Positions 36,063 through 38,380 of a DNA stretch of 64,000 nucleotides are shown here, in pieces. The stretch lies in assembly GCF_000058485.1 (NCBI RefSeq), contig NC_008278.1, forward strand, positions 2,288,962 through 2,352,961, given 5' to 3'. This DNA is from Frankia alni ACN14a. GTDB taxonomy: Bacteria > Actinomycetota > Actinomycetes > Frankiales > Frankiaceae. A program made the translations under genes and the position numbers. The stretch's first letter is position 1, and each line of letters opens with the position of its first letter. The notes under the pieces are model-generated. The model did no database searches. It was given only the letters and a program-made list of their open reading frames with translations, and was not told where the DNA came from.

Positions 36063-36134
36063 GGGCGTATAGCTCAGTGGTAGAGCGCTGCCTTCACACG
36101 GCAGAGGTCCGTGGTTCGAAACCACGTACGCCCA
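36063..36134 (+). tRNA. tRNA-Val (CAC)
   Basis: 72 bases. Acceptor GGGCGTA/TACGCCC with discriminator A, D arm TAGCTCAGTGGTAGAGC, anticodon arm CTGCC-TTCACAC-GGCAG with anticodon CAC, and T arm CGTGG-TTCGAAA-CCACG. No CCA is encoded. Partial copies of its 3' and 5' ends recur about 1.3 kb downstream. Confidence 0.97.
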
Positions 36135-36200
36135 CGCGATCTGGCTTGTCATGCTGCGCCCCCTTCCGAGGGGCTTGCCGCGGTCCCGCGTGATGTCTGC

Positions 36201-36219: not shown

Positions 36220-37365
36220 ACCCCCCGCGATGGGTGTGGTGGTGGGTTGGGGTGGATGGGCGGGTGTGGGTGGGAGTCTGGCTCTGAGCGCATGGGATCC
36301 CTTGGTGGGTGGGCCTTGGCGCTGGTTGTCGGTGGGGCGGCTCGGGCTGGTGTCGATCTTGCCGCCATGTCGAATCTTCGCGCTGGGCGGGGGCTTGGCC
36401 TGGTGAGCGCTGGTGCCCGGGGGATGGCCCCAGGTGCGCTCGCGATGGGCCTGGAGGCACGTCTGACCAGGGGCTCGGACGGTGGTGTTCGGGTCGTTGG
36501 TCGGGGGGTTGGTCCCGGGGCGGCTCGGTGGAGACGGGCGGGTGGCGCGGGAAGCGTCCGGTGCGGGTGGGTCGTGCTCATGCTCGCGCCTTTGAGTTCC
36601 GGTCGTCGGTGATCCGCTGCGGTTTCCCCTTTGGTGTCGGTTCCCGGGGCTGCCAGGCACCGCCGCGTCGGTGAGTTCGCTGGGGGCGGACCGGCGGCGG
36701 GCCATCGGATGGAGATCGTCCTGTCCGGCGTTGGCGCGCTTCCTGCCAGCACAAATGCCGCTTTCTTCGCGATACGCCCGCCCGCTTCGGGCGTCGGTCG
36801 GACCGGAACAATCTCCTCGCGACCCCACTTTGGTGCCATGCCGGTGGGGGTCCTCGACGTCGGGCCCGCGGACGGGGCGCCCGCACCGCGCCGGGCGCCT
36901 TCCGGCGGACGGTGACGGAGAGTGAGCATCGCCGAGGGTGGGCCGGTGTGGTCCGCCGATCTGGCCAGCCGAAGGGCGATCGCTTTTCTGGTTCCGCCGG
37001 TCGAGATGAGTGGCCCAGACCGCGAAAGACCGTCCGGGTTCGGACGATCGAATTCACCTGGGTGGGCTACCCCGGGTGGTCCGGGGTGGACGGTGCGCCT
37101 CGTCGGTCGCCCGGCAGCGGCGCGCGAGGATCGCCGTCGGCCGGAGTCGAAGGTGACGGGGCGGGGTGGGCCGACCGCGGTGGCCGATGACGTCGCCGTT
37201 GGCCCATCGTGGATCGCCATCGTTGTGCGTCCCGCCCCTTCGGTGAGATCGTTGGTGTGCCCACGGGTTCAGGTCCGGCGCCGGCGATGTTCGTCGGGAT
37301 AGTTCCGGTCGGCATGAGACCGGCCCTGTACAGATCGGCTGAACACCCGCTAAGCTGATCCGGTA
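36220..37365. other. 1.15-kb gene-poor stretch between tRNA-Val and the tRNA-like element
   Basis: No frame here has a convincing start, codon pattern or domain. Minus-strand frames that look protein-like run through the tRNA in antisense and are artefacts. From 36241 to 36274 the plus strand is strongly G-rich (six or more GGG runs), so a G-quadruplex is possible. Position between a tRNA and a partial tRNA copy is compatible with a degraded integrated element. Confidence 0.45.
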
Positions 37366-37497
37366 GGGCGTAGCGGGTCCCTTTTGTCGGTGCGGCGCCG
37401 CGCAGGATGCGTCGGGAGATCTCTCCCGTTTCGTACGTTTCCTTCGGGCGTGCCGCCGCGGCGGCCGGGACGCCGTGGTTCGAAACCGAATACGCCA
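37366..37497 (+). ncRNA. Degenerate tRNA-like element (tRNA-Val ends, foreign middle)
   Basis: The 5' end GGGCGTA (37366-37372) equals the acceptor arm of tRNA-Val(CAC). The 3' end repeats its T-loop region CGTGGTTCGAAACC (37474-37487) and TACGCC (37491-37496), so six acceptor base pairs are kept across 132 bases. The T stem is broken, because ACG is replaced by GAA. The middle has no D or anticodon arm; it contains CGGGAGATCTCTCCCG, a perfect small hairpin. TAAGCT at 37351-37356 could be a -10. It is either a decayed tRNA or attachment-site copy, or a structured RNA. Confidence 0.4.
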
Positions 37498-37500
37498 CTC

Positions 37501-37543
37501 GAGGGAGACTGGCGGCGACCCCCCCACGCCGTCAGTCTCCCTC
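37501..37543 (+). terminator. Very strong 17-bp hairpin after the tRNA-like element
   Basis: GAGGGAGACTGGCGGCG pairs with CGCCGTCAGTCTCCCTC through 17 positions, one of them a G-U wobble, around the loop ACCCCCCCA. It starts three bases after the tRNA-like 3' end. Only a weak T-containing run (ttcat) follows. A rho-independent terminator is the simplest reading. Confidence 0.7.
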
Positions 37544-37777
37544 TTCATCTGCGGGTACGCACCTGCGCGTGGGCGTCATCGCCCTCGCGGGAGCCCCTCA
37601 TCGGTCCACGTCCTGATAAATTGGCGGGATGATGGCCACCCTTCGAGGGGGATCGTCCGATGCAGGTGGCAGGGTTGTCCCCGGTGGGCAGGCCCGGTCG
37701 GCCATGTCCCGTCCAGTCGCTCCCACCTGCGGGCTCCCCCGGCCAGGCCGGGACGGCGAGCTCACTGTGACCACCCG

Positions 37778-38380
37778 GTGAGCGCCGAGGTCTCGCCTGG
37801 CGGGGTTCCGCTGGAGGAGCAGGCCGGGGTCGGCGGCCCGGATGCCTTCCAGCGGCTTTACACCCCGCACCGGATGGCCTACATCAAAGGCGAGGGGCGC
37901 GGGCGCGACGACGAATGCCCCTTCTGCTCCATCGTCGACATGTCCGATGAGGACGGGCTCGTCGTCGCCCGCGGGAAAACCGTCTACGCCGTCCTCAATC
38001 TCTATCCCTACAATGCCGGGCATCTGCTCGTCGTGCCTTACCGGCATGTGGCCGACTATGCCGACATGGAATCCGAAGAAATCGTGGAGATGGCCTTTTT
38101 CGTGCAGCGGGCCCTGCGCGCGCTGCGCACCGCCAGCGGAGCCCACGGTTTCAACACGGGCATGAACCTCGGCCACGTCGCCGGGGCTGGGATCGCCTCC
38201 CATGTGCACCAGCACGTGGTGCCCCGGTGGGGCGGCGACACGAACTTCATGCCGGTGGTGGGGGCCACCCGGGTCCTGCCCGCCCTGCTCGGGCAGACGC
38301 GGGAGATGCTCGCCGACGCCTGGGCGGCCGCCGCGGCCGCGGCCACGTCCACGTCCACGGCCGAGGCCGAGGCCGAGTAG
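37778..38380 (+). CDS. HIT family hydrolase/phosphorylase
   Basis: 200 residues from GTG 37778. The HIT core is complete: DECPFCSIVDM, VVARGKTVYAVLNLYPYNAGHLLVVPYRHVADYADM, and the catalytic triad GIASHVHQHVVPRWGGDTNFMPV. The CxxC near the start and this length fit the actinobacterial Ap4A phosphorylase/hydrolase type that often lies next to thrS or pgsA. Here pgsA is 2.4 kb away, beyond the EF-G-like gene. The last 20 residues are an Ala-Thr-Ser-Glu tail. No good ribosome binding site is seen. Confidence 0.9.
   Translation: MSAEVSPGGVPLEEQAGVGGPDAFQRLYTPHRMAYIKGEGRGRDDECPFCSIVDMSDEDGLVVARGKTVYAVLNLYPYNAGHLLVVPYRHVADYADMESEEIVEMAFFVQRALRALRTASGAHGFNTGMNLGHVAGAGIASHVHQHVVPRWGGDTNFMPVVGATRVLPALLGQTREMLADAWAAAAAAATSTSTAEAEAE

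Follow-up and report, generated by a model that had tools for sequence, protein, structure and literature searches.

A probable small-RNA gene conserved in Frankia, with a tRNA-like end and a C-rich hairpin loop

The window analysed here is a stretch of 64,000 nucleotides from Frankia alni ACN14a, whose genome is a single contig of 7,497,934 bases. Between a gene for tRNA-Val(CAC) and a gene for a HIT-domain protein lies an element, the features of which are collected in Table 1; an elongation-factor-G-like gene is also found near it on the opposite strand. An earlier note, made from the sequence alone, had described tRNA-like ends around a foreign middle with a hairpin directly behind them, and had proposed a transcription unit for a structured RNA, holding a decayed tRNA or an old attachment site to be equally likely.

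Table 1. Features of the element and its surroundings, in window positions.
Feature	Position	Strand	Remarks
tRNA-Val(CAC), from which the tRNA-like end probably derives	36063-36135	+	ARAGORN and Rfam
Promoter-like pair	37327-37356	+	TGTACA 37327-37332, 18-base spacer, TAAGCT 37351-37356
Proposed small-RNA gene	37366-37543	+	Conserved in 13/13 genus genomes; folding z -6.23; strand by G-U bias
Probable ends of the small-RNA gene	start ~37363-37366; 3' end at or just past 37543		
Closing (acceptor-like) stem, 5' strand GGCGTA	37367-37372	+	Partner 37491-37496
Helix 2, 5' strand	37373-37380	+	Partner 37468-37476
Variable arm replacing D and anticodon arms	37381-37467	+	Includes the CGGGAGATCTCTCCCG hairpin at 37413-37428
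Mini T-arm GGTTCGAAACC	37477-37487	+	GGTT/AACC in 13/13
Closing stem, 3' strand TACGCC (37491-37496), and A in the discriminator position	37491-37497	+	
3' hairpin, 17 bp	37501-37543	+	Loop ACCCCCCCA at 37518-37526; terminator and pairing loop, both presumed
HIT-domain protein gene, conserved downstream neighbour	37778-38380	+	Pfam HIT, 1.4e-12

The ends of the element read as the earlier note had given them, with GGGCGTA at 37366-37372 and TACGCC at 37491-37496. They do pair, as had been suggested for an acceptor stem, but the resulting closing stem has 6 bp (37367-37372 with 37491-37496) and not 7, because G37366 faces an A. The stem of the T-arm is broken in the way that had been described, running through G-C, G-C and one G-U pair before the mismatches G.A and C.A, and three bases (GAA) separate the T-arm from the closing stem. 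The A in the discriminator position (A37497) is kept in all 13 genomes of the genus, and CCA is not encoded. The D and anticodon arms are indeed absent, a variable arm standing in their place in 13/13 genomes, and the small CGGGAGATCTCTCCCG hairpin noticed before lies within that arm. The 17-bp hairpin was likewise recovered right after the element's tRNA-like part (37501-37517 with 37527-37543), beginning four bases past TACGCC and consisting of 16 Watson-Crick pairs and one G-T pair. The predicted fold of the tRNA-like part was more stable than 197 of 200 shuffles (z -2.97), and that of the tRNA-like part together with the 3' hairpin was more stable than all 200 (z -6.23).

The comparison across Frankia genomes that the earlier note had recommended revealed a strong copy of the element in each of the 13 genomes of the genus, at one locus per genome (BLAST). 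The tRNA-Val(CAC) gene lies 0.9-1.3 kb upstream at nine of these 13 loci, and contig ends cut the other four sooner. Over eight other species, identity to the window is 95% at 37480-37519 and 91% at 37520-37559, and 65-74% per 40-base block in the 5' and middle parts of the element, where the variable arm differs in length by up to ~65 bases among species. On the same scale, the tRNA reaches 91-100% and the HIT gene 82-93% except in its tail; from the tRNA to the promoter-like pair, most 40-base blocks fall between 22 and 66% and three at 72-82%, and the promoter block stands at 83%. This profile along the locus makes a decaying tRNA or an attachment site unlikely, and conservation across the genus speaks strongly against a decayed tRNA as the identity of the element.

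RNAalifold, run on the 13 genus sequences aligned without structure, returned a consensus made up of the closing stem, helix 2, helices in the variable arm, a GGUU/AACC mini T-arm and the 3' hairpin. Both the conserved pairing of the ends in relatives and the compensatory changes that the earlier note had asked for are present. In the 13 genomes, 97.4% of the cells of the closing stem are paired, its last pair being A-U in nine, U-A in one, U-G in one and broken in two. For helix 2, the value is 98.1%, with UA changed to CG in 5/13 at one pair and CG to UA in 1/13 at another. Taken together, these two stems pair in 97.8% of cells, as opposed to 26-56% when the partner strand is slid by one to three columns. 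Eight of their cells are changed on both sides, a number reached by none of 500 shuffles (mean 2.6) that ignore the relatedness of the genomes; their three doubly changed pairs were reached by 30/500 of these shuffles and their pair types by 234/500. Over the whole structure, changes on both sides affect 14 pairs and 25 cells, numbers reached by 0/500 shuffles in each case. The 3' hairpin could be compared over 18 genomes of two genera: 98.7% of cells are paired, and four pairs and 17 cells are changed on both sides, the cell count being reached by 0/500 shuffles, whereas the pair and pair-type counts were not above them (313/500 and 461/500).

The middle of the element is looser. Its helices are paired in 84-91% of cells, with 75 G-U, 13 A-C and 29 other mismatches among 333 cells, so that the "foreign middle" of the earlier note is variable but retains its own helices in the majority of species. 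The mini T-arm has no support from covariation because its four pairs never vary. The closing stem, helix 2 and the 3' hairpin together hold 32 G-U against 2 A-C cells, an excess favouring an RNA made from the + strand. This strand test is not independent, since the fold was predicted from the same alignment read as + strand, which itself favours G-U, and we regard the pairing statistics and the strand bias as supportive and not as independent proof.

The -10-like TAAGCT pointed out previously stands nine bases ahead of 37366. The sequence CTGTAC[A/G]GATCGG occurs at one spacing to this second hexamer in 13/13 genus genomes, the hexamer itself reading TAAGCT in eight, TACTCT in two, TAGGCT in two and TGCGCT in one. 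Between the hexamer and the closing stem, 12 of the 13 have a gap of equal length, and the remaining one has an extra base. Owing to this fixed spacing, transcription probably starts at or within ~3 bases of the closing stem. Looked at as a possible regulon motif, the upstream CTGTACAGATCGG matches the genome exactly at a single place and, with one mismatch, at five other sites, compared with two for a control. The pair is weak relative to the sigma-70 consensus and is not called by a generic sigma-70 scan; similarly, a consensus scan calls no U-tract terminator after the 3' hairpin, which is not followed by a U-tract. A protein encoded on the minus strand (ORF 37054-37548) was considered and rejected, as it has no Pfam match and its alignment contains single-base indels, and the alignment of the element holds indels of lengths not divisible by three, which argues against coding. 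Genus-wide conservation, the fixed promoter-like layout, compensatory changes and the G-U bias all speak, at the level of sequence, for the proposed transcription unit of a structured RNA with tRNA-like ends, and we consider it very probable that 37366-37543 is an RNA gene.

With the 3' 87 bases as the BLAST query, 18 of 35 family genomes gave a match, one each, namely all 13 of the genus Frankia and 5/5 of a second genus, g6. A covariance model of this 3' part, built from the 18 genomes, recovers the same 18/35, and neither method finds the 3' part in the other 17 family genomes, which belong to five genera. None was found in 358 further genomes of the class, the same 18 being the matches among 393 genomes searched; these searches beyond the genus scored the best first-look candidates of each genome (two each in the class search), and divergent copies could escape them. 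A degenerate pattern of the hairpin top applied to GTDB species genomes yielded 15 records, ten from the genus Frankia and five from the g6 group, which includes Protofrankia coriariae and Candidatus Frankia californiensis; the pattern missed or lacked three of the 18 known genomes (G000, G002 and G010).

The g6 copies differ from those of Frankia in their upstream half. Their promoter-like block is another one, and GCGACACGCYGAATGATTCYGGTCATAGT stands directly upstream of the shared 3' part in 5/5, a position that suggests a shorter transcript there. Four g6 sequences folded singly gave small 5' domains differing from one another, and a matching closing stem is at most putative in this genus. 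In the g6 genome CIT1/G025, the T-arm sequence has been lost and the 3' hairpin kept. The loop of the 3' hairpin is C7 in 18/18 genomes (C8 in one), while the sequence of the stem differs between the genera.

The tRNA-like end has the GGGCGTA and TACGCC acceptor ends and the A in the discriminator position in common with tRNA-Val(CAC). The identity in the T region is real as well, although it covers 15 bases (CCGTGGTTCGAAACC) and not 14 as first stated. The 14-mer CGTGGTTCGAAACC has two exact copies in the 7.5-Mb genome, one in tRNA-Val(CAC) and one in the element, as opposed to ~0.03 expected from base composition; two further sites appear at one mismatch. In contrast to tRNA-Val(CAC), the element lacks D and anticodon arms and has an arm of ~90 bases, a closing stem of six pairs and a broken T stem. 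It thus has neither the 7-bp acceptor stem nor the 5-bp T stem of a tRNA, although the T-loop is mostly kept, being the same as in tRNA-Val(CAC) in 10/13 genomes, with one substitution in G011 and insertions in G007 and G001. Neither ARAGORN nor a covariance search with the tRNA model (RF00005), which had been suggested as a check, found a match at 37366-37543, the latter even at E up to 5. Most simply, and in our view probably, the tRNA-like end goes back to a duplication of part of the tRNA-Val(CAC) gene nearby, the copy having been taken up into a small RNA. This end now seems to be a closing and protecting structure and not a true tRNA mimic, because its T stem has not been maintained and the T-arm sequence is missing from one g6 genome. 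At two g6 loci (L120 and L117), a tRNA-Val(CAC) gene precedes the element on the same strand by ~2.6-3.1 kb, and its acceptor and T-arm sequence is equal to that of Frankia.

RNAs of other function that bear an acceptor/T-arm-like end are known, such as tmRNA, YrlA and the mascRNA/TMER-type RNAs, and in TMERs a hairpin follows that end directly. These RNAs keep a full T stem or have a proven processing site, whereas the T stem of the element is broken and its processing putative. No Rfam family reached its gathering threshold for the element, and nothing credible emerged at E up to 5. The seven matches found at permissive thresholds, among them microRNA stems and Pxr, all scored far under the gathering scores and were discarded. 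The Pxr small RNA of Myxococcus (RF01812) resembles the element in having a C-rich loop in its first hairpin, and aligned weakly over 37501-37601 (E 1.2), its 16.7 bits falling far short of the cut-off of 80.

To our knowledge, neither 6C RNA nor B11 carries a tRNA-like end. 6C RNA (RF01066) was rejected as the identity of the element, as it has no match in the window and requires two C-run loops, of which the element has one; the host genome holds a separate 6C match outside the window (G000:C1:7144301-7144387; 48.5 bits against a cut-off of 47). The element and 6C/B11 are alike as actinobacterial RNAs with a C run in a hairpin loop. According to the excerpted text of a study of the mycobacterial small RNA B11 (PMC10470900), 6C/B11 RNAs have two C-rich loops, as opposed to the one C-loop hairpin here, and those of B11 target G tracts and ribosome-binding sites.

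We read the element as a standalone small RNA that acts through its C7 loop on G-rich mRNA and bears an end resembling tRNA-Val(CAC), and we give this full reading a probability of roughly 0.6. The C7 loop is the best-conserved unpaired part, with the exposed C run typical of C-rich-loop small RNAs conserved in 18/18 genomes, and together with the action of the C-rich loops of B11 it leads us to infer a trans-acting small RNA. RNA polymerase would start at or ~3 bases from the closing stem, and transcription would end at the 3' hairpin, probably without the help of a U-tract. Pairing between the 5' and 3' parts would form a tRNA-like three-way junction of the closing stem, the long variable arm and the mini T-arm, which may shield the 5' end and display the 3' hairpin. 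The active part would be the unpaired C7 loop on top of the rigid 17-bp stem, and its pairing with G-rich stretches of mRNAs, for example ribosome-binding sites, would lower translation. We give even odds to this pairing mechanism, which draws on the analogy with B11. In a search confined to one strict pattern, ATG starts and three genomes, TGGGGGGGT was found 2-9 bases ahead of ATG at 1, 0 and 1 sites, compared with 0, 0 and 2 for the reversed control, which is no enrichment.

6S and Ms1 RNAs fold into a long bulged hairpin, the central bubble of which binds RNA polymerase. The hairpin and the tRNA-like end of the element could similarly bind a form of RNA polymerase, or else a tRNA enzyme, instead of mRNAs. 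A rigid and very conserved hairpin would suit this role, but the predicted three-way junction differs from the long bulged hairpins of 6S and Ms1, no Rfam family matches the element, and a long C run in a loop would be more typical of base-pairing small RNAs. We consider a protein-binding RNA unlikely. In the excerpt of a study on Ms1 (PMC9130861), this stand-alone RNA is widespread in actinobacteria, has a HAD hydrolase gene as its neighbour and was undetected in Frankiales, so that the lists may lack a counterpart; the gene neighbours of the element differ from those of Ms1/6S.

The element might also act in cis, as the 5' leader of the HIT mRNA with the 17-bp hairpin as a regulated terminator. 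It lies on the same strand as the HIT gene and 234 bases upstream of its start (the start codon at 37778 was picked by eye), and HIT is the downstream neighbour at the loci inspected. The HIT gene was found in 34 of 35 family genomes, however, including 16 of the 17 genomes without the element, the seventeenth of which is 63% complete. Among 14 HIT loci from g5 and g7, two of the five genera without the element (the others being g2, g3 and g4), the hairpin or promoter motif is present in none, and tRNA-Val(CAC) lies upstream of HIT in 11. Moreover, the AT-rich TCCTGATAAATTG at 37611-37623, between the hairpin and HIT, is identical in 9/9 aligned genomes and may be a separate promoter, perhaps a promoter or operator of HIT. 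A leader or attenuator is in our estimate distinctly unlikely.

In another scheme, the tRNA-like end would be a precursor in which RNase Z or RNase P cuts after A37497 and frees the C7 hairpin as the mature regulator. The order of the parts would permit it, with closing stem, T-loop, the A in the discriminator position (13/13) and the hairpin three bases later. The T stem is broken, however, the GAA insert and a closing stem one pair short depart further from a substrate resembling tRNA, the tRNA model gives no match at E up to 5, and G025 has lost the T-arm. We regard such a precursor as improbable. The same doubt attaches to a bolder scenario, in which a duplicate of tRNA-Val(CAC) shed the D and anticodon arms and acquired a new arm as well as a promoter, and had its C7 hairpin freed by tRNA enzymes, as a bacterial counterpart of viral tRNA-miRNA units. 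The tRNA-like part would then be a module for processing or stability, cut right behind the discriminator-position A, and the freed hairpin would silence G-rich ribosome-binding sites. If this were true, a tRNA gene would have become the precursor of a regulatory RNA within one bacterial family.

A DNA element with no RNA of its own, either a bidirectional terminator or a protein-binding palindrome, is very improbable: the hairpin doubles as an inverted repeat in DNA and could terminate transcription coming from tRNA-Val, but the conserved closing stem spans 130 bases, and a function in DNA or on the minus strand would not favour G-U over A-C, with the reservation that it was the + strand that was folded. 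A decayed tRNA gene or an old attachment site of an integrated element is scarcely credible and not the equal choice it had been taken for. Integration would leave a partial tRNA 3' end downstream of the intact tRNA, and the T stem is broken, but throughout the genus the 3' part is about as conserved as a tRNA, compensatory changes occur and a promoter-like sequence is present. An att repeat would keep neither the loop of the hairpin nor the GGCGT strand at the 5' end, and no match to the element was found by blastn among 50,697 records of phages and 72,556 of plasmids or by exact pattern in viral contigs.

Bacteria of the genus Frankia are nitrogen-fixing symbionts of alder and other actinorhizal plants, and their regulatory RNAs seem hardly described. 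The standalone small RNA that we favour, conserved and with a near-invariant loop, would offer a good entry to regulation in these symbionts, and it presents a case of an RNA end that apparently came from an adjacent tRNA gene. The gene appears to be undescribed: no study of Frankia small RNAs was found in the open-access literature, judged by titles and the starts of abstracts among the matches listed, and the excerpted text of a transcriptome study of Frankia strain CcI3 (PMC3188489) does not mention the locus.

Other conserved non-coding blocks were observed nearby. At 36820-36885, CCCCACTTTGGTG, exact in seven of nine aligned species, faces GGTGGGGGT and is followed by GGGCCCGCGGACGGGGCGCCC; this block is possibly another structured RNA or a terminator, and TTCCCCTTTGGTG at 36624-36636 resembles it. 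Closer to the element, upstream of the promoter-like pair, 37200-37250 is conserved around CATCGTTGTGCGTCCCGCCCCTTCGGTGAG, with 82% identity over eight other species at 37200-37239.
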